DNA of 64,000 nt from a virus. Made by a program: the position numbers and the translations under genes. The stretch's first letter is position 1, and each line of letters begins with the position of its first letter. Location of the stretch: positions 1 to 64,000 of the IMG/VR virus record IMGVR_UViG_3300033153_008530; one strand, 5' to 3'. Under the pieces are notes generated by a model that searched no databases, was not told the DNA's origin, and worked only from the letters and a program-made list of their open reading frames with translations. Shown one piece after another: positions 4,189 through 55,000 of the stretch.

Positions 4189-4330
4189 CCTATAGAAAAA
4201 AGTTATGCACGTGAAGATTTAGTGGGTCCCTATGATGAAAAAATATTTTTCAAAAAGTTTTGCCCCACCCCCCATTGTTTTGTGAAGGCAACTCCTTATT
4301 TCAATCAAATAATAACAAAAAACCTCTGCT
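4189..4330 (+). other. Intergenic leader with inverted repeat and C-rich tract
   Basis: No ORF. Contains a perfect 7-bp inverted repeat around ATA (4236-4252, TGAAAAA/TTTTTCA) and, at 4261-4273, a C-rich stretch (TGCCCCACCCCCC) that stands out in this AT-rich genome. The first early motif follows at 4289. Possible terminator/regulator for the preceding gene; function unknown. Confidence 0.4.
4289..4301 (+). promoter_or_regulatory. Early motif copy 1 (CAACTCCTTATTT)
   Basis: First of eight near-identical elements in 4289-6832. It starts 42 bp before the ATG of the membrane-protein gene at 4331. All copies are intergenic and on the same strand. Candidate promoter for the phage's own RNA polymerase (inference from position and repetition). 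Confidence 0.55.
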
Positions 4331-4594
4331 ATGAAAAATAAAGTCTTCTCTCTTCTCTTGTTATCATATGTTATATCATTGATATGTTTGATAACATTCT
4401 TATGTTATGATTACTTCTTTGCTTACAATGTTACATTGTTTATTATGTGTGTACAAGTTCTATTGCTTGGTCTTATATATGCTATTAAGATACGTAAAGA
4501 TAATGAAGTTATAGTACCTGAAGTACTACCACCAACACACATTACACTAGCTGACTGGCATAGGAAGTGGAACAAGAATAGGAAGGCTCAGTAA
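4331..4594 (+). CDS. Small two-helix membrane protein, early region
   Basis: 87 residues. Two long hydrophobic segments (about 5-27 and 31-52) are followed by a soluble tail containing a proline-rich PEVLPPTH stretch and a basic end (WHRKWNKNRKAQ). The topology suggests an inner-membrane protein with a cytoplasmic tail. No family recognised. It is preceded by an early motif and its TAA stop lies inside a terminator hairpin, so it is probably transcribed alone. A host-takeover or superinfection-exclusion role is possible but unproven. Confidence 0.6.
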   Translation: MKNKVFSLLLLSYVISLICLITFLCYDYFFAYNVTLFIMCVQVLLLGLIYAIKIRKDNEVIVPEVLPPTHITLADWHRKWNKNRKAQ

Positions 4595-4608
4595 GCCTTT
4601 CTGTTTTG
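4581..4608 (+). terminator. Intrinsic terminator overlapping a stop codon
   Basis: Stem GGAAGGCT (4581-4588) pairs with AGCCTTTC (4594-4601) with one G-T wobble, loop CAGTA, then TGTTTTG. The TAA stop at 4592-4594 sits in the loop and arm. Confidence 0.6.
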
Positions 4609-4613
4609 TGTTA

Positions 4614-4626
4614 CAACTCCTTGTTA
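4614..4626 (+). promoter_or_regulatory. Early motif copy 2 (CAACTCCTTGTTA)
   Basis: Lies just after the preceding terminator and before a unit without a convincing ORF that ends at the terminator 4783-4811. Its presence ahead of a non-coding unit argues that the motif acts in transcription rather than translation. Confidence 0.5.
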
Positions 4627-4811
4627 ATAGTAGACCTAATTCCTCTTTTATCTCAATGAAGAGATAATTGAACTGATGTGGGAATGGAGGGTAATGGAGG
4701 CATCCATCATATGGAAAAGCAGAGGCTTTCACCTTATTGCTTTGGTGATGTAAGGACCGTAAACAGCTTTAGCAGGCACACTAAGCACCCATTAATTTGG
4801 GTGCTTTTTAC
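4627..4811 (+). ncRNA. Candidate small RNA unit (or micro-ORF)
   Basis: About 180 nt bounded by an early motif and a strong terminator. The only ORF of any size is 25 codons at 4676-4753 (starts MWEWRVMEAS), plus a three-codon ORF at 4656. Two readings remain open: a phage small RNA or a micropeptide gene. No RNA family recognised. Confidence 0.35.
4783..4811 (+). terminator. Intrinsic terminator
   Basis: Perfect 8-bp stem AAGCACCC/GGGTGCTT (4783-4790 with 4799-4806), loop ATTAATTT, followed by TTTA. Confidence 0.75.
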
Positions 4812-4816
4812 TAAAC

Positions 4817-4829
4817 CAACTCCTTATTA
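4817..4829 (+). promoter_or_regulatory. Early motif copy 3 (CAACTCCTTATTA)
   Basis: Starts 37 bp before the ATG at 4854. The whole 37-bp leader closely resembles that of copy 4 (both continue with A/T-rich sequence containing TTAAACTT and end TATT before ATG), suggesting unit duplication. Confidence 0.6.
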
Positions 4830-4853
4830 TACTTAATCTTTAAACTTTATATT

Positions 4854-5006
4854 ATGACGATAGAAAGCACAGCAACTGCAATCATTGATGGTATTATAAC
4901 TACTATCCAGATCCTACGCTATTCTGATGGCAAACGTTCTAAACGTTTTTATCAGAAAGGTAGACTCACTGATGTAATTATCCTTGAACCTGAGAAGCCT
5001 ACATAG
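4854..5006 (+). CDS. 50-residue early protein, hypothetical
   Basis: Begins MTIESTATAIIDGI and has a basic centre (RYSDGKRSKRFYQKGR) followed by a beta-like TDVIILEPE. No family recognised. Supported by its own upstream motif, ATG at the same distance from the motif as the next gene, and a TAG stop placed in the loop of a terminator. The composition could suit nucleic-acid binding, but that is a guess. Confidence 0.55.
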   Translation: MTIESTATAIIDGIITTIQILRYSDGKRSKRFYQKGRLTDVIILEPEKPT

Positions 5007-5018
5007 GCTTCTTTCTTT
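4993..5018 (+). terminator. Intrinsic terminator with stop codon in the loop
   Basis: Perfect 8-bp stem AGAAGCCT/AGGCTTCT (4993-5000 with 5005-5012), loop ACAT, then TTCTTT. The TAG stop at 5004-5006 spans loop and arm. Confidence 0.7.
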
Positions 5019-5031
5019 GCATAATGTAAAA

Positions 5032-5044
5032 CAACTCCTTATTA
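5032..5044 (+). promoter_or_regulatory. Early motif copy 4 (CAACTCCTTATTA)
   Basis: Identical to copy 3 over 13 bp and 37 bp before the ATG at 5069. Confidence 0.6.
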
Positions 5045-5068
5045 TTACTAATCCTTAAACTTAATATT

Positions 5069-5434
5069 ATGGCGTACAAATGTAAAATACCTTTTCGTGT
5101 TAGATATGTAGCACCAAGGAGAGGTAAACTTAAAAGCGAAATGCTTTATTACTGTTATTGGTACAATAATAAAGCATTAATGGTTAGAAGAGACTTAGAT
5201 GATAGTTTACCTCTTCTTAGACTTCCAATCTATCACTTTAAACACTATAAACCCAAATTACCACTATCTGCAGACCAACAAAGAGCACAACGCTTTAAAC
5301 TCAAAAGTACAGGTCATAGAAACATTGTAGAATACAATGAAATCAAACTTGCTGAACACGATAAAAAGTATGGCATTAATAGAGCTCAAAAGATAGCAGA
5401 ATATAATAATAAGGGTAAATCAAGAGAGTCTTAG
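5069..5434 (+). CDS. Basic early protein, hypothetical
   Basis: 121 residues, rich in Lys and Arg, starting MAYKCKIPFRVRYV. The first half alternates basic and aromatic residues (YYCYWYNNKALMVRRDL), resembling a small beta domain. The second half is a long charged helix-like region ending NNKGKSRES. No signature of a known family. Nucleic-acid binding is plausible from charge only. It is a single-gene unit between early motif 4 and a terminator that contains its TAG stop. Confidence 0.6.
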   Translation: MAYKCKIPFRVRYVAPRRGKLKSEMLYYCYWYNNKALMVRRDLDDSLPLLRLPIYHFKHYKPKLPLSADQQRAQRFKLKSTGHRNIVEYNEIKLAEHDKKYGINRAQKIAEYNNKGKSRES

Positions 5435-5449
5435 GGCTCTCTTTTTATT
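5422..5449 (+). terminator. Intrinsic terminator with stop codon in the loop
   Basis: AGAGAGTC (5423-5430) pairs with GGCTCTCT (5435-5442), one wobble, loop TTAG containing the TAG stop (5432-5434), then TTTTATT. Confidence 0.7.
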
Positions 5450-5460
5450 AAAACACAAGA

Positions 5461-5473
5461 CAACTCCCTACTT
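5461..5473 (+). promoter_or_regulatory. Early motif copy 5 (CAACTCCCTACTT)
   Basis: 29 bp before the ATG at 5490, the shortest motif-to-start distance. Diverges from the consensus at two positions (CCC, TAC). Confidence 0.5.
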
Positions 5474-5489
5474 AACCTAAATCAATACT

Positions 5490-5747
5490 ATGGCAACAAA
5501 AATCAAATACAATGTAGTGCACGGTAGACCCGTGGGTAAAGATAGTGAAGGTGCAACCATCTATAAAAACGTGCAAGTTGGCGTGGTTATGGAGAAAGAT
5601 GGCAGGTTCCTGCTTAAACTTAATTATCTGCCAGCTGAAGGAGCCTTGTTCTTCAACTTGTGGAAGCCTAAACCAAAGGCAGAACCAAAACCAGAACCTA
5701 AAGCAGAAGTAATTGCTGATGATGGAGATGATGAAGCACCATTCTAA
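5490..5747 (+). CDS. Small SSB-like protein with an acidic DDEAPF tip
   Basis: 85 residues. Residues 1-57 look like a small beta barrel (KYNVVHGRPVG, VQVGVVMEKDGRFLLKL, ALFFNLWKP). They are followed by a KPKPKAEPKPEPKAE linker and a C-terminal tip DDGDDEAPF. Bacterial SSB proteins end in a very similar acidic DDxxPF-type tip that docks repair and replication partners. Small mobile-element proteins with a beta domain plus such a tip are known. Likely binds single-stranded DNA or mimics the SSB tail (inference). Own motif and own terminator. Confidence 0.5.
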   Translation: MATKIKYNVVHGRPVGKDSEGATIYKNVQVGVVMEKDGRFLLKLNYLPAEGALFFNLWKPKPKAEPKPEPKAEVIADDGDDEAPF

Positions 5748-5753
5748 CAACTT

Positions 5754-5778
5754 GAGCCACTAACGTGGCTCTTTTTTT
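5754..5778 (+). terminator. Intrinsic terminator
   Basis: Perfect 7-bp GC-rich stem GAGCCAC/GTGGCTC, loop TAAC, followed by seven T. It lies just after the TAA stop rather than over it. Confidence 0.85.
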
Positions 5779-5782
5779 AACT

Positions 5783-5795
5783 CAACTCCTCATTT
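5783..5795 (+). promoter_or_regulatory. Early motif copy 6 (CAACTCCTCATTT)
   Basis: Directly after the terminator T-tract and 35 bp before the ATG at 5818. Confidence 0.55.
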
Positions 5796-5817
5796 TATTT
5801 AATTAAAATTAAATAAT

Positions 5818-5964
5818 ATGTATAAATATAGCATAAATGAAGTGATGCATTTCAGTCCTTCAAGGTCATTAGTAATGGGAATACTGAATACATCCAGTAA
5901 ACCCAAAAAGATTAAACTTCCAAGTAGGAAGAAGAGAAAGTTTAACAAAAGAAGGTCTAAATAG
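5818..5964 (+). CDS. 48-residue basic early peptide
   Basis: Begins MYKYSINEVM and ends in a strongly basic tail rich in Lys/Arg from about residue 29 (KPKKIKLPSRKKRK then FNKRRSK). Such a tail suits RNA or DNA binding. No family recognised. Supported by the upstream motif, the motif-ATG spacing like its neighbours, and a TAG stop inside a hairpin. Confidence 0.5.
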   Translation: MYKYSINEVMHFSPSRSLVMGILNTSSKPKKIKLPSRKKRKFNKRRSK

Positions 5965-5972
5965 GCCTTCTT
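5950..5972 (+). terminator. Hairpin over a stop codon, weak terminator
   Basis: AGAAGGTC (5950-5957) pairs with GGCCTTCT (5964-5971), one wobble, loop TAAATA; the TAG stop is at 5962-5964. The T-tract is short (TT then AAAA). Read-through into the next gene, which lacks its own motif, is likely. Confidence 0.45.
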
Positions 5973-5986
5973 AAAATCAATTAACT

Positions 5987-6289
5987 ATGAGTAATATAAA
6001 ATTTAAATTAGACTTCTGGGAACAAAGACAAAAACTACAAGTAACAGTTTGTGAAGAAGAAATATACACAGATAATGATGAAGACTTTACATATGATGAA
6101 CTTATTGCAAACAAACTTCGTCTAGGTTATGTAATAGTATATCAGTATTGGCATGCTGCAGTAGGTCAAGTAACAGTATTTGAACCTCAACGTCTCTTTG
6201 CAGATGAATCACTTCAGAGTGTACTTAATCAAGCACTTGAACCTGAAGATCCACGTGATTATCCAGAACCAACACTTGGTGAAGACTAA
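5987..6289 (+). CDS. Acidic early protein, hypothetical
   Basis: 100 residues, strongly acidic, starting MSNIKFKLDFWEQRQ. Stretches of Asp/Glu occur around residues 20-35 (EEEIYTDNDEDFTYDE) and at the C-terminus (EPEDPRDYPEPTLGED). Small acidic phage proteins are often DNA mimics or inhibitors of host enzymes, but nothing here identifies a target. No early motif precedes it; it probably shares the transcript of the 48-residue gene. A strong terminator follows. Confidence 0.55.
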   Translation: MSNIKFKLDFWEQRQKLQVTVCEEEIYTDNDEDFTYDELIANKLRLGYVIVYQYWHAAVGQVTVFEPQRLFADESLQSVLNQALEPEDPRDYPEPTLGED

Positions 6290-6291
6290 CC

Positions 6292-6316
6292 AAAAGGCCT
6301 TAACGGCCTTTTTTTG
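6292..6316 (+). terminator. Intrinsic terminator
   Basis: AAAAGGCC/GGCCTTTT stem around TTAAC, running into a T-tract (TTTTTTT). Confidence 0.8.
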
Positions 6317-6373
6317 CAACCTTTAGCAGAGTAAGTGACTTAAGAGCAACATTAAGCACATACTTTCTCTTTT

Positions 6374-6386
6374 CAACTCCTCATTT
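6374..6386 (+). promoter_or_regulatory. Early motif copy 7 (CAACTCCTCATTT)
   Basis: Preceded by TCTCTTTT, exactly as copy 8 is. No protein-coding gene follows within its unit. Confidence 0.5.
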
Positions 6387-6778
6387 ATTTTGTACAACAA
6401 CACCAAAAAGGTTTGCAAGCCTTTTTGTGGTCTTTGGCTGAATAATACTTTGTATAGAGGTATAAGGCACATTGATTAGAGGACACTCTGCAGGTATTAG
6501 GAATCTAATATCTGACTGTTTAGCAACAGAATTAAATGGTGAAATTTGTAGGCAACAGATCTAAAGCATCTATAAACGTTAGTAACTTGAATTAGGCGTG
6601 ATACCCATCAAGTGCACATTATCCTGTAGCGGGAATTTCAATGATAGTTCAAGAGCAGTCTTGCGGAGAACTATTGAGAGATATTTTGTAGTTAGTGTGT
6701 TAACGTAGATAAGACCTATATCATCAAATATTTGCAGGGAAAACTTAATCCTGTAAGACCACGTTGTTGTGCTTTTTT
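6387..6778 (+). ncRNA. Candidate structured non-coding RNA, about 390 nt
   Basis: Lies between early motif 7 and a weak terminator. There is no ORF longer than about 19 codons (an example starts at an ATG near 6537). Hairpins are visible: CAAAAAGG/CCTTTTTG near 6402-6427; ATAGTTC/GAACTAT (6644-6650 with 6668-6674) enclosing AAGA/TCTT; TGCAGG/CCTGTA near 6733-6755. The base composition is less AT-rich than the intergenic DNA. It does not match a tRNA, and I recognise no RNA family. Could be a regulatory or protein-binding phage RNA. Confidence 0.4.
6760..6778 (+). terminator. Weak intrinsic terminator
   Basis: Short stem CACG/TGTG around TTGT followed by CTTTTTT. Confidence 0.35.
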
Positions 6779-6819
6779 AGTAAAGTTAAAAGACAACCTT
6801 AAAAAACTATTTCTCTTTT

Positions 6820-6832
6820 CAACTCCTTACTA
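6820..6832 (+). promoter_or_regulatory. Early motif copy 8 (CAACTCCTTACTA)
   Basis: Located 73 bp before the ATG at 6893, the longest leader in the set. The leader contains a hairpin (CTATAA/TTATAG around AAG, extended by wobble pairs) that could protect the mRNA 5' end. Confidence 0.55.
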
Positions 6833-6892: not shown

Positions 6893-7378
6893 ATGGCAGT
6901 AAATACAAGCCTTAAAGCATCTTGCATAAATACTTATAGCAAGTTAGACAGGAATCAGAATCCTATAGACGTATTCGTCTACAAAATCACTGGTACTAAA
7001 TCAGCGTTAGCACGTTATGAAGAACTCCAAGGAGATAATTATCGTGAAGACGAAGAGACAGGTGACGTCTTGTTCTTCTCTACAAGATATTTTGGAGAGA
7101 GTGGTAACATCATCATTACAGCAAATGATAAAATTGCACCTGATTTAAGTAGCGTTAAGAAACAAGCATCTCTTGTAAATCAGTTTGGAGGTCAAATTGG
7201 TGAGGCTTTAGCACAGAAAATAGCAGATCAACTGCTTGGTGTGAAAGCAACAACACCACCTGCTGAAACTCCTGTTGTGACAGAGAGTGAAGATAAGGCA
7301 GAAGAAGAGATAGTAGATGAGGTGGAAGAAAGTGAAGTTGATGAAACTATAGATGAAGATGCAGATTTTAATGCATAA
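6893..7378 (+). CDS. Early protein with long acidic C-terminal tail
   Basis: 161 residues. Residues 1-105 form a mixed alpha/beta domain (MAVNTSLKASC, VFVYKITGTKSALARYEEL, FFSTRYFGESGNIIIT, LVNQFGGQIGEALAQKIADQLLG). From about residue 120 the chain is a Glu/Asp-rich tail ending EDADFNA. The organisation of a small domain, a flexible acidic tail and an aromatic residue near the end recalls single-stranded DNA-binding proteins. I do not recognise the domain, so the function is open. Its leader hairpin and strong terminator suggest an abundant single-gene transcript. Confidence 0.6.
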   Translation: MAVNTSLKASCINTYSKLDRNQNPIDVFVYKITGTKSALARYEELQGDNYREDEETGDVLFFSTRYFGESGNIIITANDKIAPDLSSVKKQASLVNQFGGQIGEALAQKIADQLLGVKATTPPAETPVVTESEDKAEEEIVDEVEESEVDETIDEDADFNA

Positions 7379-8140: not shown

Positions 8141-8666
8141 GATGTAAGATAAGGCAGTCCTTTAAATGACGGTACTATTTCCTTATGTAGAGTGGCGTAG
8201 GACTCATCCTCTACAGCATCTTATTTATATAGGCGTTGAATGGCTTAAAAGTCCAGACGTGGTTGTACCAACTTAATAGAGAACAAAACACTTGCGTTGC
8301 CAACTCTCTACCTATTTTATTATCAAAATTGACAACTTTGTGGGTAATTTTTGATCACTATTGACAGAAATTAACCACTACTTATTTTAGTCAAATAATT
8401 AAAATACTGATTATCAAATGATTAGTATTAAATGAATTAGTGGTATAGATATAGTATATCTATCTAGTAATAATACAGCGGAACTGTTGAAAACCATTTG
8501 TCTTTACAGAGATGATGTAAGCATGGAGGGCCTGTAAGTACTCTAGTCAGACGGCTGTAGAAGCACGTATACCAAATTGTGGGTGAAGGGCATTAATTCT
8601 CTTTACCTACATTTGTTTTAATCTCAGTATTATAGCTATAATTATTAATTTTACAAAAACACTACT
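8141..8666 (+). other. Long non-coding stretch rich in inverted repeats (possible origin or structured RNA)
   Basis: No convincing gene; a 36-codon ORF (8166-8276, starts MTVLFPYVEW) is possible. Part 1 (8145-8223) can fold as a branched RNA: TAAGAT/ATCTTA closes a stem AAGG/CCTT and a perfect 7-bp stem TGTAGAG/CTCTACA (8186-8192 with 8209-8215). Part 2 (8374-8463) is AT-rich with nested inverted repeats: ACCACTA (8374) facing TAGTGGT (8438), an imperfect palindrome around 8404-8430, and a perfect 19-bp palindrome with 9-bp arms at 8445-8463. Candidate replication origin, operator or ncRNA; it cannot be decided from one sequence. Confidence 0.35.
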
Positions 8667-12566: not shown

Positions 12567-12628
12567 GGCTTGCATGCGTTGCAAGTCAGAAAATAAAGGA
12601 AGTTGTCCACGGATGGCTTCCTTTTTTT
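12567..12628 (+). terminator. Tandem hairpins, second one a terminator
   Basis: First hairpin GGCTTGCA/TGCAAGTC (12567-12574 with 12580-12587, one wobble). Second: an 8-bp stem AAAGGAAG/CTTCCTTT (12595-12602 with 12617-12624) with a 14-nt loop, then TTTT. The pair resembles a terminator preceded by an extra RNA element. Confidence 0.65.
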
Positions 12629-12650
12629 AATTTATTTAAAACAGATTCCT

Positions 12651-19871: not shown

Positions 19872-19884
19872 ATCATATCTAACA

Positions 19885-19907
19885 TAAGAGGGTGTAATGC
19901 CCTCTTA
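19885..19907 (+). terminator. Hairpin terminator
   Basis: TAAGAGGG/CCCTCTTA 8-bp stem with loop TGTAATG, then ATATTTAT. No long T-run, so termination may be partial. Confidence 0.5.
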
Positions 19908-19939
19908 ATATTTATAAACCAACAATTAAAATTTGTATT

Positions 19940-20185
19940 ATGGCAAAAACTGCTAAAAAAACTACTGTAAAGAAAAAAACAGTTACTAAAAATGCATCTG
20001 ATCTAAGAAAAAATTCATTAGAGATTGCAGATGCATGTAAAGACATATGGGATGACAGAGAAGATTTAAAAGCTGCGCAAGTAGCCTTAAAAGGTTATGC
20101 AACAGCTAATTCTGTTACTAAATCACAACTGATATATAAAAAGATGTCAGGTAAACCTGCTAATATTAAATTCCTTGAAGACTAA
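19940..20185 (+). CDS. Small basic histone-like protein
   Basis: 81 residues. The first 20 are a Lys/Thr repeat (MAKTAKKTTVKKKTVTK) like bacterial histone-H1-type tails. They are followed by helices (LRKNSLEIADACKDIWDDREDLKAAQVALKG) and a short basic end. Possibly a DNA-binding accessory protein. An AAACCAACAA motif lies 24 bp upstream, and the 3' end overlaps the next ORF by 11 bp. Confidence 0.55.
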   Translation: MAKTAKKTTVKKKTVTKNASDLRKNSLEIADACKDIWDDREDLKAAQVALKGYATANSVTKSQLIYKKMSGKPANIKFLED

Positions 20186-33329: not shown

Positions 33330-33350
33330 TTATATACTTTTCAACATATT

Positions 33351-33376
33351 AGCACGGATAGTCCGTGCTTTTTTTT
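33351..33376 (+). terminator. Strong intrinsic terminator
   Basis: Perfect 8-bp stem AGCACGGA/TCCGTGCT with loop TAG, followed by seven T. Separates the recombination unit from the polymerase unit. Confidence 0.9.
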
Positions 33377-33394
33377 GCTTAAAATTTAAAATAT

Positions 33395-35305
33395 ATGGAT
33401 AACCATTGGGTAATGGATTATGAAACCATGATCAATTGTTTTGTGGGTGTATTTGAGCACTATAAAACAGATGAACAAAAGATTTTTATAATTCATGAAT
33501 TACAAAATGATTTCATTGACTTAGTTAAATTTTTAGAACAAAATAAAGAAAACGGAGAAAAACATATTTCATATAATGGTTTAGCATTTGATGCTCAAAT
33601 CACTGAATACATACTTAAAAATAGCACAAAATGGGCTAAATTAAGTGGAGATGAAGTAGTTACTGAAATATATAAAATGGCACAATATGTTATTGAAAGA
33701 TCTAATGCCAGAGAATGGTTAGATTTCTATGAATATAACATGTCAATTCCTCAATTAGATGTTTATAAACTTAATCATTGGGATAATGCCGCTAAAAGAT
33801 CAAGTCTTAAATGGATACAATTTTCAATGGATTGGTATAACTTACAGGATATGCCAATTAAACATGATGAATTTATTCACTCAAGAGAAGATCTTGATAT
33901 AATAATTAATTATTGTATTAATGATGTAAAGTCAACAAAAGAAATTTTATATAAATCAAAAGATCTCATTTCTTTACGTAAAGATCTAACAAATAAATAC
34001 AAGATAAACCTATACAATGCTTCAGAACCTAAAATATCTAAAGAACTATTTCTACACTTTTTAAGTAAAAAGTCAGGAGTTCCTAAAAATGATATTAAAT
34101 ATTCTAGCACAAATAGAAAAGAAATAATAGTTAAGGATATTTTACTTGATTATATTAGTTTTAATAATCTTGTATTCAAAGAGTTACATGAAAAGTTTAA
34201 AGAAAAAGTTATATATGCAGATCAAACCAAAGGAGGTTTTAAAACAACTGTAAAGTTCCATGGTGTAAAAACACATTTTGGATTAGGTGGAGTGCATGGC
34301 GCTAGACCAAGTGGGGTATACGAGAACAATGAAGATATGATGATCATGACTTCAGATGTTACAAGCTTCTATCCCAATTTAGCTATTAAGAATAAATGGT
34401 CTCCAGCTCATTTACCAAAAGAAGACTTTTGTGAGCAATATGAGTGGTTTTTTAATGAAAGGAAATTAATTCCTAAAACAGATATTAGAAACTACACATA
34501 TAAGATCATACTAAATTCTACTTATGGTCTCTCTAATGATAAGTTTAGTTTCCTATATGACCCGCAGTTTACTATGCAGGTTACAATCAATGGTCAATTG
34601 TCATTGATGATGTTATATGAAATGATCATGGACGGTATTCCTGGTGCTATTCCAATCATGCAAAATACTGATGGTTTAGAAACTATGATACCAAGAACTT
34701 ATGAAGATAAATATCTTGAGATCTCTAAAAAATGGGAAGAGATAACTAAGCTTAATCTAGAGCATGATAAGTATCAAAAGCTAATTCTTGCAGATGTTAA
34801 TAGTTATATAGCTGTTAACACATTTAAAGAAGTTACTAAAGATGAATTTAGTGATCTGAAAAAGAATCCACATAATATCATAAAAGAAGAGGATGGTAAA
34901 TATTATCATGCAAAAACTAAATGTAAAGGTAGATTTGAATTTCAAGATTTGCCATTACATAAAAATAAGAGTAACTTAATCTTTGACTACTGTATAGGAG
35001 TTAAAATCAAAGGAAACTGGACATTTAAGATGAGATGGATTGATGAAGAATTAAAAGAAGAAGCTCTTCAGAAAACAATTAGATACTATGTGAGTAATCA
35101 TGGTAGTAAAATTTATAAATGTAATAATGCAGATGGACGTGAAATCCAAGCTGAAAGTGGTAAATGGTTACTTAAACTATTTAATGTATATAAAAAGAAA
35201 GCCTGGAAAGATTATAATGTTAATGAACAATATTATCTGAAATCTATTTATAGAGAAATAGAAAATATAGCAGGTCCAAAACTAAAACAACTAAAATTAT
35301 TTTAA
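33395..35305 (+). CDS. Family B DNA polymerase with exonuclease
   Basis: 636 residues. The exonuclease domain has DYET (Asp8, Glu10), NGLAFD (Asn61 to Asp66) and YCIND (Tyr173, Asp177). The polymerase domain has motif A DVTSFYPN with Asp321, motif B KIILNSTYG with Lys370 and Tyr377-Gly378, and motif C QNTDGLE with Asp426. Motif C lacks the usual first Asp (N-T-D) but keeps the metal-binding one. Only 49 residues separate Asp321 and Lys370, so the fingers are short. It is the replicative polymerase of the phage and the first gene after the terminator at 33351. Confidence 0.9.
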   Translation: MDNHWVMDYETMINCFVGVFEHYKTDEQKIFIIHELQNDFIDLVKFLEQNKENGEKHISYNGLAFDAQITEYILKNSTKWAKLSGDEVVTEIYKMAQYVIERSNAREWLDFYEYNMSIPQLDVYKLNHWDNAAKRSSLKWIQFSMDWYNLQDMPIKHDEFIHSREDLDIIINYCINDVKSTKEILYKSKDLISLRKDLTNKYKINLYNASEPKISKELFLHFLSKKSGVPKNDIKYSSTNRKEIIVKDILLDYISFNNLVFKELHEKFKEKVIYADQTKGGFKTTVKFHGVKTHFGLGGVHGARPSGVYENNEDMMIMTSDVTSFYPNLAIKNKWSPAHLPKEDFCEQYEWFFNERKLIPKTDIRNYTYKIILNSTYGLSNDKFSFLYDPQFTMQVTINGQLSLMMLYEMIMDGIPGAIPIMQNTDGLETMIPRTYEDKYLEISKKWEEITKLNLEHDKYQKLILADVNSYIAVNTFKEVTKDEFSDLKKNPHNIIKEEDGKYYHAKTKCKGRFEFQDLPLHKNKSNLIFDYCIGVKIKGNWTFKMRWIDEELKEEALQKTIRYYVSNHGSKIYKCNNADGREIQAESGKWLLKLFNVYKKKAWKDYNVNEQYYLKSIYREIENIAGPKLKQLKLF

Positions 35306-46055: not shown

Positions 46056-49000
46056 TTATGCTAAACATTTGTTTTTTAATTCTTGAATTTCATAATCACT
46101 AATAGGTTGATCTTTTTGGATTATGGCTCTTATACTGGTAGATCTTAATGATCCAGGATTAATATAACCAAATTTATCATAAAGTTTACTAGATAAGTGA
46201 ACATATGTTTTTCTTGATTTTACATTATCTAACAATTCTTTACCATATCCAGTTTTAATTAAGGCAATAGAATTGTTTCCCTTCATTAAATTAGCTATCT
46301 TATCAATAGCATTATCAATTAAGATCTTGTTTTCTTCTAATGTTTCATCAGTCATCATCTTTCCATCGTTTATTAATGGGATACCAAGACTGTTATCAAA
46401 CTCACTTAATGATTCATCTCTTCCTTTTTTTCCTCTCTCATTATATATAAAGGTTACTCCACCACTCTGAGTTGCTAAAACTTCATATTTACTTGATGAT
46501 GTTTGTGCATCATATATATAAACATCTTTAGTTTTATACTTTTTTAAGGGTATTCCTTCTTTAACTGGTACTTTCTGCTCAGATGTCATGGTACTTGCCA
46601 AAGTTTTATCAATCATATAATTTTTAGAGCGCATGTTTAATGATTTAGTTATTGCCCTATTCATTGTTATCATTCTATTTGTATAAAGTGTAAGAATCTC
46701 TTCATTTAGATTCTTAATATATGATTCATAAGGACCTTTAAGAAGTAATAATATATTACGTTGATCAATAATCCTAGTCATTGAGAGTGGGCTCTTTGTA
46801 TTTAACCCGGATTGTAAGAAGGCGTAGTAGTTAAATCTCTGAAAGAAGTTAGTTATTTTTAATTTATCCTCTGGATCATCTATTTTTATTTCACTTGGAT
46901 TACTAAGTTCTAGTAGATTCTCATGATAAACCTCTACTGTATCTGGGTCTAAAACAGTTTCTTTCAGTTTCAAGTTCTTTATTCTTTCACCAGGCTTTGC
47001 TTTTGATTGGATAATACTTTCCATTAATGGATAATCTCTTGATAATGAGGGATATTTAGCTTTAATATCCATAAACTGATTAACCATACTATTATGTCCA
47101 TAGAACATATTTCTAATATTAAGAGTATTGTCAAGAGCTTTGTCACGTAGTATCTCTTCGTAAGTGAGTAATTTCATTCTCTTCTCATACATGTTATCAG
47201 TTTCTCCTTCTTGTCTTTCTGTTTCAATAGAATCAACTTGATTCATGTTTCTCTTAAGTTTTTCTTTAAATTCTTCTTTTTTACTTTCTTCTTTAAAAGA
47301 AATAATACTTCTTAAGTATTCTCTTTCATATATAAATTTGTAAAATTCTTTTTCACTTAAAACATCTCTTGTTTTAAAAGCATCTGGAGTGAGAAGAGCA
47401 TGTCCTGATAACACCCATTCTTTCTTTACACCTTTTCCTTCTTTGTTAATCTTCTGCACCCATCTAACTCTTTTATTTTGGTCTGCATATGTTTTGTTCT
47501 TAAACATATCATTAAGAGCTTCTTTGTTAACATATAATACATTATCTTTTACATAAGCGCCTACAGTTAATACATCTACTTCTTCAACTCCAATCTTATC
47601 ATTAACTGTTAGACTTCTATATTCTTTTGTATTCTTATTAAAACCTTTTATTGAATTTTGGAATATAAAGCTTACAAGATCATTTTTCCATGCAGCAACA
47701 AACTTCTCTTGTTCATTCTGACCATAGGTTGTTCTTACTGCACCTTTTCCAGCGGCTGTATCCAAAAAGTCATATAAGAATTTATTAACTAATTCATGAT
47801 TACGAAGTGGGAAATATTTACTCCATACCTCTTCTTGAAAGTCAGGTACTGAGGCAAATGAAGATATTGGACTTTCTGTAAGCAATCTATCTAAAGGTCC
47901 TCTTGGAAACAATCCATATTTGTTAATTGTTCTCATGTTTCTTCTTCTCTCCTGAACATTATATAAAGAGGCTGCGGGATCTGTATCTAAATTTGTATTA
48001 AGTTTTACATCACGTACAGAACCAGCTATTAATTCTAACTCAATAAAGTGTAAGAATGCATCTCGTGCTGTATCATTAACAGTTCCATTTAATGCAATCT
48101 CTTTAAGTTTAGCAGGATTAAAGTTTGATGTACGTCTCTGAGCTGTAAGAAGTATGTTTGGTACACTAGGTGTATTCGTTGCATCTAACCCTAATGTGGA
48201 ATAATTATCAAATCCATTACGTGCAATTACATTTACCTTTGCTTGATATCTAGTATACTGAGTTTCATCAGGGGCCATTCCTAGAGGCATTGAAAATGAG
48301 CTACTCATAATTCTCTGTTCCTTTACGTACTCTTTTATAAGAGGATTAGAAAGGAACATAACTGCGTCAGTCAATGATACACCTGATTCAACTAATAATA
48401 ATAATATAGGTGTTAACTCAGTATTACCCTGAAGATGAAAAATCCAAGGATCTTTTTCAACATCAACCCAACCATTTATTAATTGTTCTAGTATTTGAGC
48501 TATTTCAACACCGTCTACATTATTTATATTAGATAAAGATATTACGTCATTCTTACCAACTTTAAAAGTATTATGATCTAATAAGATTCTTGTATTAAAC
48601 TCACTCTTGTCTCTCATAAAAGTTGGCATTAAATACATACCTACTCTATTAAATAATGCATTATAAGTATTTGCAATTGCTCCTTGTCCTAATGTCTTTT
48701 TACCAACGTTAAAGGCCTCATGAATATCTGTATTAAATCCTATTTCTAATATTTTTGTATGACTAATGTTTTCTGCTTCTTCACCACGTATCTGATCTAC
48801 AACATCCATTGCAAGATGATTTGAGTTTGGACGAACAAGACTTATAAAGTTATGTGGTAATTCAAGAATTTCTTTCATCTTATACATTATCTCATTCTCC
48901 ACTCCTCTAACACCTTCAGTAGATAAAATTACTTCACCTTCTTTATTTCTTCTAATATTAGGCATCATTATAGTTAACTTGTCTATGTCAAAATCAGAAC

Positions 49001-52000
49001 CTGATTTAGAAACAATTTCTGATGGTGGAATAATTATGTTACCTGCGGATTCTGGTAAAAACTCATATACTTCCATGAACTCTGCGGAGTTAAGACCCTG
49101 AACTGGAATACGCACACCCACCATGGTGATTAGTTTCCTATTATCATCTCTATTTAACCACTGTTCATCTTTGATCATTTCATTAAGCCTAAGTCTTGTT
49201 TTTATTCTTTCACCATCATTATGTGTTAATCCTAATAATTTAATAAAACCACCTTGTAAAGCTATTTTAACTTTCATAGCAGATATGGTCTTACGTATAT
49301 TACCTTCTGCGTCAAACATTGAGTATGTAGGTAGATCACTTGATCCCCACTTTGCAATTTCTGCATCTGTAGGATTAGTGAAATTTCTATCAGCGGGGGT
49401 GGCCTCATTGTTTGTAAATAGAGCAGTTGATATCTGAACTAACATTTGTCCATTAACTTTTTGTCTAACAAGCTGTTTATTAACTACTGCAAAAAGAATA
49501 TTCTCAATACTCTCTGCATTAACTGACATTCCAAATGGAAATACTAAGTCTCCTTTATCATCAACTTCTAATACATCAAGTTCAGATGCTGTTATATCTT
49601 TTCTTTCAAGATTTGGTATGATAACTTTATTTAGAAGATCCTGAAGATTTCCTTCTAATTTACCTTTTTCATTATATGACCATCCTGCATCTTTAAGTAA
49701 TTGATCTTTCTTATACTTCATTAACTTATCTAATAACTCCTCGTATTCTTTATATTTAGAAAAGTAATCAGATTCATCCTTCATTACTTGTAAACCCTTT
49801 TTCTCAATCTTCTTCCATTCAACACGTCTCTTTGTAAGGCTTGTACCGGGCATAAAGTCAATTGGTACGCCACCTTCAACTAAACCAGTTTCAATTAGTT
49901 TTCTAAGCTGAGTAGAGAATGTTACTTTAGTTTTATGCTTTGAATCAATATCTAATTGATCTTTTAGAAATTCCAAAAACATAACATTAGGTGTATATTG
50001 ATCTGCAGATTCAACAGACTTAAAGATCCTTTTTATGGGGTCTGCATAAACTTCATCATAAGTTCCATCTTTTGTAATAGTACTTATTTTTGAACCTGAT
50101 TCAAATAATGCATAATCAAATTTTTGATCAACTAAACTATCATGAAGATCTTGTAATCTAGTATTCTCTATAACGTTTGGTATAAGAGGCATTAAAGAGA
50201 ACTTATGACCAGCTATAACTGGTAAACCATCTGTTTTTAAGGGCCCAAAATATTGTACTTTCTTTGGTGGAAAAAATTCTGTTACAAGTCTTGGATCAAC
50301 ATACTCACCAGCAACAATTTTTTTATAAAGTTGTTCTTGTGTATTACTCCATTTTCCTATTGCAAACTGATATATCCTATATGCATCAAATGTAATCCAA
50401 CCTTGACCATCACCTTCGTTCATTTCTTTGTAAGGTTTTATAGCATGGTAAACCGCATTCTCTAATTTTTTACCTTTTAATTCTGCTACAGTGCTATAAT
50501 AATCTCTAAACGCTTTTTCATATTCTTTAACATATACTGAAGATACTATATGATCCTGAAATACTGCTGACTTAAATGTACCATCAAAGTCTTTATCTTT
50601 TATCCCTCTTTTTATACTGTAATCACCCTTCATATTATTTCTAATATAATTGATAATTGCCTGATCAGTTCTAGGGAAACGTCCTGTTGATGCAACCATT
50701 TTGTTTCTCTTAAAGAACTCCATTCCATTCTTATATTGGGCAGGATCTCCATAAAAGAAAATTAACGTTTCAAAATCACGTATCCATTTATTATAAACAA
50801 AAGACTCAAATATTGCTTCTCTTATTTGTGGAGTTGTTGCACTGTGATTCTGATAAGATATTTGTTTTATCAATGAATCAGATATATAGTTAAGATCTCT
50901 ATATCTTTCAGTAACATCTTTTACTTGACTATTAAAATACTTAGTTATTTCATCATGTAATCTATTATATAAATCCTGATTAGTTTTTAATTCCTCAAGT
51001 AGTTCAACATTAAGATCTTTTAGTTCTTTCTTTAAAGGATTTGAAAGAATCTTGTCAAATATTGAAAACTCTTTAGCTCTTTTATTATAACCAGGTACAT
51101 TTTTTACTTGATCTGCTTTATTAATTCTAGTTAATTCAGCTTGTATATAAGGAATAATTATTTCTACTGCCTTATCTTCCCCAGTATTTGTAAAGAAATC
51201 TTTAGTGTCAACATATAAATGCTTATCACTTCCTAATGTGTGAGCTTCAGATATACCTGCAGAATAAGCGCTCCCAGCAGAAGCATGTCTTAATAACTCA
51301 GGAGATCCTGAGACTGGTGTACCACTTAACAGTGTATAATGAAGATCTGTGATTAGTTTTGTATGCTTGTCTGCCTCTACAGTAGTTGAGCTATATCCAA
51401 TATCTGTAATAAGATTATCTACTACCATCTGGTTTCCAGATAGATTATTTAAATCTAGTGTAACACCTTTTCTTTTAATACCACCATTTTCAAAATCAAA
51501 TAAAGAATTTAACCATTGTGATGTGCTTTTATTTTGCCCGTTTTCATCCTGATAAATATACGTCCATGGATTACGTTTTGATGAAAGATAAGACATAAAA
51601 GGTTTATTAATTAACTCATTAAAGGACTTTGAGTCATTAATTTCATTGATAATCACACTTAGCGAACTTTGAAGTGAATATTCATATTGGATATCACCTA
51701 ATGCATTTGTAACAGCTGCAGAAGAATATTTATCTGAGTATTTTAACTGTAATAAAGCTAACTCTTTAAGATTCCCTTTATGACCTTTATGTACAACTCT
51801 CCCTTTTTCAATTATATCATATTCTAAAGCTTCAATAATATTTCTTACTTTAGTACCTTTTTCATTAAAATATTTTAATCTTTTTACTATTTCCTCAACA
51901 AACACTCTGTATCTACTCTTACTATTAATATTTTGTTTTAATTTTATATTTCTTGTATCAAGATCAATTCCAATATCTCTTAAGAATACAAACGGATTAC

Positions 52001-55000
52001 CTGATGGAGATGCAAATTTTTTCATGACAGAATTTATGTCAAGATAATTTCCTTCTGTATCTGGTTTTATGTGTGGAGACTCTTTTGTTGTTGCAAAAGA
52101 ATTCATCCAATCAAATCTTATTCTTCTCCAATTTGCAGAGGCATTCCCAATTTTATCCGTGTATGACCATGCATTTTCTGTATCTCCAAATGCACCTTCC
52201 CTTGTTAAAAGTGTTCTATCCATTGTGTATTGGACCAATGGAATTCTTGTTCTGTTAAACGCTTCAACAAATTTATTCCATAACATGGCATCATAGTATG
52301 TCTCATGACCAGGAGTTTCATCACCTTTTTCATTTATAACAACAGGTTTACCAAGGCGCTCTATAAGTTGTTTATAAACTGGAAAGTCTTGAGAATCCTC
52401 TTCTAATAGATCATATATTTTATTTGAGTCTCTTACTCCCTGTAATAGAGATAATGTATGTTCCCAAGTTACTTTAAAGTTTGAAAGCTTTTTTACACCA
52501 AGTTTGTTATACACACCGTCAGGATCTTGTGGTGTCACTTCAAAGAGAGTCCTTAAAAGATAAAGCACCTCATTTGAAGCTAAATCTTTTACTGAAAGTT
52601 CATTACCTTTTCTGTCATGACCTTTAATTTTGTTAGATGTCTCCTCTTCAGAAAATTCTGTAATGAATTTATCCTCAAGATTTAAGATTTCAGTTCGTTT
52701 TTGATGAAAGGCAATAACACCTTTAGTTTGTTTTTTAGTTATGAATGATTCAAAGTCACCAAAATTATCAATTGCAAATGTCAATAGATCTATACTATTC
52801 TTTGTTACTATATCCTGTGGCTTCTTTTCTTCTTTTGTTCTAAGTTCATTTAGTCTTTCTATGACATATTCATATGCAGTATTTAATCCTGTCTTACTTG
52901 ATAATAATTTGCTTATAGCTGCACGTCCTTTCCCGCTTACAATAAACTCTCTATTAGCTTTATCTATAAGTTCTCCAATTAATGAATCAACTGTTTCACT
53001 GATTAAAATAGAATCAGTAAAAGATATTTGTTCGTCATTAAGTCCTTTTATACCACCCTTATCAAGCTTTGCAAACATCATATTATTTAGAGATGGCGTA
53101 TAATCATTTATGTCACCAATATATAATTTGTCATAAAGATCTTTAACTCCTTCAACACTTTGTTGATCAATAACAACTTGGTCAAGAGTTGAATTTCCAA
53201 ATAGTTGTTTTAGAAAGTCTAATATCTTTTGGAAAATAGTCTTGGCAGCTGGCGTATTTATTTTACGCTTGCCGTCTGAAAGTACATATAACCTAAAATC
53301 TTCAGCTAAATATTCTTCTAACATATAATCAGAAGCCTTTTTAAAACTGATTTTATCACCTAAATAATTTGTAAATGTTCCACTTCTCTTCTTTAAACTA
53401 TCATATAGATCTCTTTTTTGTTCAACTGTAAGATACATTTGACTAAATCCGTGCCATGCCTCATGATAGAGATCTGTATAATTAGAACCTTTGTATAATA
53501 TTATTCCGTTTTTAGTAAATTCTGCAAAGTTTTTGGAATTGACTATATTGAACGCAGCCTGGTATGGAAGATTTTCTCGCATTGGATGGTTGTTATACCA
53601 CTCTTCAGCATCTCTTATTTGTTTTTTAGTAGCTGCATTATTAATATTTTTGTTTTTATCTAACTTAAGAAATCTATTAAGTGCACTGTCCCTGTTATTG
53701 TCAGTGGGATTTTTCGTGACTGCATTGTAATCTTTAAGAATATTTTGAGTTAACTCATCTTCTAATTCTTGTTCTTCTAATTTAATTACTACAGCGGAGC
53801 TCTTTTTAATATTTGGGATTTCTCTTCTCTTTATGAAATCATCTGCATTATCTTTATTACCAAATCTACCTTCAATTCTTTTATTACTTGAGGGAACCTG
53901 GATTACATAATCAGCATGCTCAATAAAATTATACGTACCAGTCAAAATAACTTTACCTTCTTCTTTTAGATCTTTTATTTGCCCTAAGACATCATCTTGT
54001 ACAAGCTTGTAACTTACACCGCTATCTTTTTTCCAATATTCTAAAATAAAATTCTTATCCTTTTTCACTTTAAAATCAGGATCTCTTCTTTTTATTTCAG
54101 CTTTTAGTAGTTCATCCGCATCAATAACACCTTCCATTGTTGGGACAAAAGTAGTCTTACCTGCTCCAGGAGTTGCATAGATTAATTTACCCGTGTATTT
54201 TGATTTAGATTTTTTACCAGCTTTTGGAGTTGAAATAGAAGGATAAGTTGCTGTGTTCTCTAATACTTCACCAGGTTTATATTCAGTGTATATATCATAT
54301 ATGGATTTCTTTTTTAATGGTATAGTTAAAGAACCATCAGAAGATTTTGGAGATTCAGCTGTTGAATATTCTCTCTTACCAATCCCCTTATTTCTTATTA
54401 ATTTAGTTGTAACTGGAAATATTTTAAGTGTATCTAATACTATTCCTGTACGTTGTCTGAATAACTCAGCGTAGGCATTTAGTTGAATCTCGTCTTGAGC
54501 TTGATAATTATATTGTTTGGTTTTATAGGCAATACGTCTATTAAGACCAGATGTTTTAAGATCTACAAGATGAAAGGTTTTATTCTTTTCATGATATAAT
54601 AACATGTCAATTGTACCAGCATAATTAACATTTCCAAGTGTCCCCCATAGGGTTGGTATCTCAGTATATATTCTATAATTCTTCTTAAGTCTTTTCTTTG
54701 CCTCAGCATATACATCATAGAGTTCACCTAAAAACACATCTGAAAATACCTCAGTATTTTTTCTTTCAGGGTGTTCAACATACATTTTTTTAAAAGCCTT
54801 ATATGATGTTATCTGATCAGATAATGTAGCTCTAAATAAATCATCAGCAATTGTACCTCTTGTACGTGCTTGTCCTTCATCTCTAGGAGCATCAGCTGGA
54901 TACGGAATAAGATCTCCTTTAAAGGCGCTTACTCTTCTAAATGATTCTCTAGCTTCATCTATATAAAATTCAGAATCTTTTTTATTTACAGTTAATTTCT

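Follow-up and report, generated by a model that had tools for sequence, protein, structure and literature searches.

What is a short sequence that recurs eight times between tiny phage genes, and what reads it? The question is raised by a 13-bp element in the crAss-like phage record IMGVR_UViG_3300033153_008530 of IMG/VR. Phages of the crAss-like group rank with the most abundant viruses in the human gut and carry a giant virion RNA polymerase (RNAP) whose activity is established. Throughout, the window denotes the first 64 kb of this 87,011-bp record, the stretch in which an initial annotation had described the element as a possible early promoter for the phage's own giant RNAP. The analysis reported here indicates that the element is most likely a start signal read by this enzyme.

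An eight-copy intergenic motif

The motif CAACTCCYYRYTW is found exactly eight times between positions 4289 and 6832 of the window, on the plus strand and with zero mismatches, at each of the starts that the initial annotation had listed. The copies conform to the consensus CAACTCC[CT][CT][AG][CT]T[AT], and all eight are intergenic even though just 43% of the array region is non-coding. The reverse strand contains no match, and only one other forward match exists in the whole record, at 72770, where a gene lies on the minus strand. The 7-mer CAACTCC occurs 19 times in the window, compared with 3.97 ± 1.97 times in shuffled sequences, none of which reached 19 in 100 trials. Eight of these 7-mers fall within 2.6 kb, where 0.08 are expected, and the resulting local-cluster score of 12.7 exceeds the best score of any 7-mer in 40 second-order shuffles (at most 7.4). 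In a weight-matrix scan of the whole record with 14 columns, the eight copies scored 18.6–21.0 bits, while the next-best site other than that at 72770 scored 13.7 bits, so that about 5 bits separate the array from the remaining genomic sites. A degenerate ninth copy considered at 8375 was rejected, as its 10.6 bits lie within the genomic noise. That motif-like site (CCACTACTTATTT; 82% over 28 nt with copy 1) stands in the interval 8375–8611, with a non-coding stretch and a strong terminator downstream.

Motif copies at the heads of coding and non-coding units

The block is organized as a row of nearly all single-gene units, each consisting of motif, leader, gene and terminator, and all on the plus strand. 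Copy 1 (4289–4301, CAACTCCTTATTT) heads a gene for 87 amino acids (aa; 4331–4594), whose product appears hydrophobic by eye in its N-terminal half. Copies 3 and 4 (4817–4829 and 5032–5044, both CAACTCCTTATTA) precede genes of 50 aa (4854–5006) and 121 aa (5069–5434), and copy 5 (5461–5473, CAACTCCCTACTT) precedes one of 85 aa (5490–5747), which weakly matches phrog_18187, a family of unknown function. Copy 6 (5783–5795, CAACTCCTCATTT) heads the sole two-gene unit (5818–6289), encoding 48 aa (5818–5964) and 100 aa (5987–6289), and copy 8 (6820–6832, CAACTCCTTACTA) precedes a gene of 161 aa (6893–7378). From motif start to ATG, these six units measure 42, 37, 37, 29, 35 and 73 nt, in agreement with the range of 29–73 bp given previously. 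The other two copies, copy 2 (4614–4626, CAACTCCTTGTTA) and copy 7 (6374–6386, also CAACTCCTCATTT), have no good open reading frame (ORF) behind them, as had been remarked, and their units run 227 and 506 nt to the next gene. The presence of the motif at the head of coding and non-coding units alike points to transcription.

Intrinsic terminators lie directly upstream of many copies. Five of the eight begin 6–18 nt past the end of a terminator hairpin: copy 2 follows a hairpin with a T-run by 6 nt, and copies 3 and 4 follow terminator hairpins by 10 and 18 nt. The plus-strand terminators of the block include that of the first non-coding unit (about 4784–4809, AGCACCC-GGGTGCT-TTTTT) and those at 5422–5448 (AAGAGAGTCTTAGGGCTCTCTT-TTTAT), 5754–5778 (GAGCCACTAACGTGGCTC-TTTTTTT) and 6292–6316 (AAAAGGCCTTAACGGCCTTTTTTTG). 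Terminator-like sites are enriched in the array region overall (14 versus 2.8 expected).

Both predicted non-coding transcripts fold better than shuffled sequences. The first (4627–4812, plus strand, about 186 nt) ends in its terminator hairpin and has a fold z-score of -2.3, and the second (6387–6778, plus strand, about 390 nt) is the more structured, with a z-score of -3.7. In the second, a 10-bp stem pairs 6392–6401 with 6763–6772 and is followed by T6. The 5′ arm of this closing stem starts 6 nt behind copy 7 and its 3′ arm lies before the T-run, which suggests an RNA 5′ end at the motif or immediately behind it. In the non-coding units of other lineages, such a closing stem next to the motif was not a consistent feature. 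No Rfam family reached its threshold score in the non-coding units of the window. Within the copy-7 unit, positions 6414–6572 weakly resemble the manA RNA (22.7 bits against a threshold of 55.2; E = 0.00087 for 519 bases).

A giant RNA polymerase in the same genome

The minus-strand ORF at 46056–56810 encodes 3584 aa and is the proposed reader of the motif. Its comparison with 6VR4 (phi14:2 gp66) yielded a phmmer E-value of 1.7e-24, with the catalytic GSDFDIDK segment (DFDID) aligned and kept; this match and the DxDxD motif bear out its earlier assignment as an RNA polymerase. The gene order is that of phi14:2, with the replication block convergent with the RNAP-associated protein, the RNAP and the structural genes. 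The 3086-aa neighbor of the RNAP was matched to phi14:2 by position only, without a sequence match. Among the Crassvirales hallmarks, a DNA-primase family match was seen, and the 87-kb record may be incomplete.

The same layout with other motifs in related phages

Related records were collected through the DNA polymerase (54–69%), the RNAP (34%) and the helicase (50–63%), and their early blocks were then examined by a de novo motif search on intergenic DNA and an independent expectation-maximisation search with shuffles. Clustering of k-mers over whole genomes had been swamped by the coding signal, a problem solved by scanning intergenic DNA only. The exact 13-mer forms no array in 56 related records. 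Among the relatives, whose RNAPs are about 26–48% identical, the same layout with a different motif is present in at least seven other records and probable in three more. The motifs of the relatives include AACCTCTCATAAC, ATATCAACCTAC, AAACACCCTT, CTAGCCCTTAACTT and AACCCCTTTTTT. Clear arrays were obtained in G013 (AACCTC[TA]CAwnAC, eight copies), G047 (ATATCAACCTAC, nine), G050 (CCAAACACCCTT, six), G051 and G012 (CTAGCCCTTAACTT, five and about four to five), G044 (AACCCCTTTTTT, seven) and G001 (TTTYACTRAYA, 12). The probable arrays are those of L174 (ACTACTTTWTATT, five copies), L154 (TGCCAAATTTACATTC, three) and L159 (CCCTTTTTTTCYTTAAA, about eight, three of them overlapping terminator stems); the last is placed here because its motif CCCTTTTTT is partly terminator stem at those three copies. 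When whole records were searched, all eight matches of the G013 motif fell within 2.2 kb of 120.7 kb, all nine of the G047 motif within 2.5 kb of 111.5 kb, and six of the seven of the G050 motif within 2.8 kb. Across ten records, a hairpin with a T-run lies no more than 75 nt upstream of 40 of 71 motif sites, compared with 7.4% of random positions, a contrast that is somewhat flattering because the random positions include coding DNA. The hairpin often ends 3–18 nt before the motif at these 71 sites.

The gene behind copy 8 (6893–7378) links the arrays to one another. Its homologs occur inside the arrays of G044 (two, E = 2e-28 and 1e-16), L154 (1e-11) and G047 (8e-5), and a profile built from them adds two in L159 and one in L158. 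The located homologs are L166:1841–2242, L166:579–974, L159:2888–3262, L158:695–1075, L154:1882–2403 and L228:11519–11941. The homologs of G044, L154 and L159, as well as the G047 homolog at L228:11519, carry the motif of their own lineage in the leader, and the L158 homolog has CAACCCCTT. A different array gene is common to G012 and G051 (E = 8e-11) and stands behind their shared CTAGCC motif. In the initial annotation, absence of the motif upstream of orthologous early genes was named as an outcome that would refute its reading. Position and architecture are in fact retained in the relatives, while the exact sequence is not conserved; since the orthologs of 6893–7378 lie behind own-lineage motifs, the motif is present rather than absent at these genes once it is allowed to be lineage-specific, and the reading is not refuted. 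As single queries, the 161-aa protein and a 213-aa early protein retrieved no relatives in a protein search, and the orthologs of the former surfaced only once the arrays had been located by motif. The AlphaFold model of the 161-aa protein is weak (predicted local distance difference test score 57.7) and gave no convincing fold match. These proteins form a family of unknown function that recurs in crAss-like early blocks, at times duplicated within an array, and neither Pfam nor the PDB contains a relative.

The RNAP was detected in all longer array records; the fragments L159 (40 kb) and L174 (26 kb) gave no match. In the RNAP tree, the closest pair, G012 and G051 (54%), shares the motif CTAGCCCTTAACTT. 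The other array pairs compared have RNAPs at most 44% identical, short local matches aside, and their motifs differ. This pattern fits co-divergence of motif and RNAP.

A model for early transcription

A promoter role of the motif is well supported by the sequence evidence above. The analysis directly shows the motif with its statistics, its place at unit heads and behind terminators, the own-lineage counterparts at orthologous early genes, and what the giant ORF encodes; the promoter role, the position of the start, the early timing and the reading by the giant RNAP are inferred. Taken together, it is probable that the motif forms the core of an early promoter and that eight such promoters drive short early transcripts read by the giant RNAP. 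This agrees with the function originally proposed, in that the RNAP is real and the motifs head coding and non-coding units, mostly right after terminators; the identity of the polymerase is the more conditional part. According to this model, the giant RNAP would travel inside the virion and enter the cell together with the DNA, in line with what has been reported for phi14:2. The eight promoters, mostly located directly behind an intrinsic terminator, would then drive separate short transcripts, with transcription probably starting within or just downstream of the motif. Six of these transcripts would be mRNAs encoding tiny proteins, and the other two would be structured non-coding RNAs. The designation of the array genes as early is based on synteny, with the timing and the identity of the polymerase taken from phi14:2 and crAss001 (PMC10136315, PMC8375218).

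Other crAss-like lineages keep this layout with a motif of their own, as would follow if the specificity of the polymerase and the sequence of its promoter evolve in step. The chances are slightly better than even for a broader proposal, namely that crAss-like phages possess a lineage-specific, fast-changing early promoter code. Such a code would comprise a terminator–motif–gene array at the start of the replication strand, a motif co-evolving with the giant virion RNAP, and mostly monocistronic small proteins together with structured non-coding early RNAs.

Several observations weigh against these interpretations. The early regions of phi14:2 and crAss001, scanned by the same method, show no array above shuffles, and neither do roughly two thirds of the relatives scanned, which may reflect fragments, uncovered early regions, a weak motif or real absence. 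The evidence for co-divergence is thin, as it rests on one close pair, and any vertically inherited phage factor would fit it too. The motif is also missing from middle genes that follow internal terminators, as at the site before 33395, yet the crAss-like RNAP is reported to transcribe middle genes too, which calls for a second class of promoter or a further polymerase. Terminator-like hairpins within the middle-gene block were seen at about 33340–33395, 12610–12650 and 19872–19940, and the genes that follow them are without the motif. This arrangement implies another promoter class or antitermination.

Alternative readers and roles

The strongest competing explanation, though unlikely, retains the promoters and changes their reader: host RNA polymerase would be redirected by a phage sigma-like or activator protein that is injected or made first. 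All of the promoter evidence applies to it equally, and the factor and the motif would diverge together in the same way as the RNAP and the motif. The spacing of the array is less compatible with it. A motif 6–18 nt after a terminator leaves no room for a sigma-type promoter in between, and the distances of often 3–18 nt behind hairpins elsewhere likewise leave none for a spaced two-element promoter upstream. Moreover, the surroundings of the eight copies revealed no second conserved element, and the genome itself encodes a member of the RNAP family reported to carry out early transcription.

It is improbable that the motif acts at the RNA level, as a leader element for translation, stability or processing. 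The 16S anti-Shine-Dalgarno tail is CACCTCCTTTCT, and CAACTCCTTATT resembles it by eye at 9 of 12 positions; in addition, the motif usually lies 16–60 nt before an ATG and is pyrimidine-rich in several lineages. On the other hand, two copies head non-coding units, and the motifs of other lineages (ACTRATA, TGCCAAATTTACATTC, CTAGCCCTT) are unlike the anti-Shine-Dalgarno sequence. In the copy-7 RNA, the closing stem begins shortly after the motif, and little space is left upstream of the motif for a promoter.

Ordinary host promoters, of the sigma-70 or the Bacteroidetes type (TTTG...TAnnTTTG), are very unlikely. Late crAss-like genes are thought to use the host RNAP (PMC10136315), but TAnnTTTG is missing from all eight windows around the motif (-80 to +60), sigma-70-like sites with -35/-10 hexamers occur at the level of chance (44 versus 45.7 expected), and the motif varies between phage lineages. 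Equally poor are the prospects of a DNA element unrelated to transcription, such as replication iterons, recombination or gene-cassette borders, or packaging sites: the repeats are direct and on the same strand, and copies 3 and 4 lie within a 48-bp repeat of 85% identity that suggests local duplication, but the copy-to-copy spacing is irregular (203–591 nt), the position at unit heads is strict with terminators in front, and this position is kept in other lineages while the sequence changes.

Comparison with known virion RNA polymerases

The proposed reading by the giant RNAP has its closest parallels among phages with virion polymerases. The phiKZ/AR9 virion-RNAP promoters (in AR9, AAATATATATTAT-(6N)-G) are likewise one short motif before many early genes and predictable from over-representation; the AR9 early motif was found in this way, and 33 of 34 predicted promoters were confirmed (PMC5312081). 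AR9 packages its own RNAP, whereas packaging is proposed here by analogy with phi14:2. The AR9 motif is A/T-rich with 41 mapped sites, in contrast to a CAACTCC-type motif in one block known from sequence alone, and the AR9 polymerase is multisubunit, in contrast to a single giant chain of another family. The virion RNAP of the Thermus phage P23-45 is a single-chain, two-barrel enzyme of the class that includes QDE-1 and phi14:2 gp66, and a conserved motif precedes its pre-early start sites and is restricted to those relatives that also encode the polymerase (PMC10770324). That system differs from the present one in its AT-rich motif, the fusion of its polymerase to the tape-measure protein and its mapped start sites.

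In phi14:2, the RNAP is responsible for rifampicin-resistant early transcription (PMC10136315), and in crAss001, the early genes, which sit at the far end of the replication block, appear within 10 min (PMC8375218). Both phages share with the present one the RNAP family and an early block that opens the replication strand (PMC8375218, PMC10136315), but no comparable motif array above shuffles was found in them. Phage N4 is a podovirus in which early promoters also serve a large virion RNAP, and these require inverted repeats around a GC-rich heptamer (PMC4496689). An N4-type hairpin promoter was rejected for the present array: no consistent hairpin is seen, and the one copy of eight that folds significantly does so downstream of the motif.

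If the lineage-specific promoter code proposed above is real, it would be the first promoter class to be defined for the giant, QDE-1-like RNAPs of crAss-like phages. No published promoter for such an enzyme was found in the literature searched, whose scope did not include Drobysheva 2021 (Nature, phi14:2 RNAP), so an earlier report is possible. Precise candidate promoter sequences, now available for about eight records, open the specificity of the RNAP to direct testing. Confirmation would provide a family of matched polymerase–promoter pairs and would show how a virus can preserve the layout of its early expression as the signal itself is rewritten. The structured non-coding early RNAs would be an added, unexplored early product.

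Further observations in the related records

Three helicase homologs (L218, L219 and L220) come from bacterial metagenome-assembled genome bins (Sphingomonadaceae, Campylobacteraceae and Pseudomonadales) and are probably misbinned phage contigs. Structured RNAs of known families were found in several array-bearing and related records. A Hatchet ribozyme lies in the early region of G012, about 1 kb downstream of its array (L108:2058–2220, minus strand; 81.1 bits against a threshold of 51, E = 6.5e-15), and a Pistol ribozyme lies about 2.4 kb downstream of the G001 array (L094:18602–18670, plus strand; 42.8 bits against a threshold of 34.5). In G005, a permuted tmRNA (L117:8424–8664, minus strand; 57.3 bits against a threshold of 47) is located near a roughly 900-nt ORF-free stretch upstream of the replication genes.

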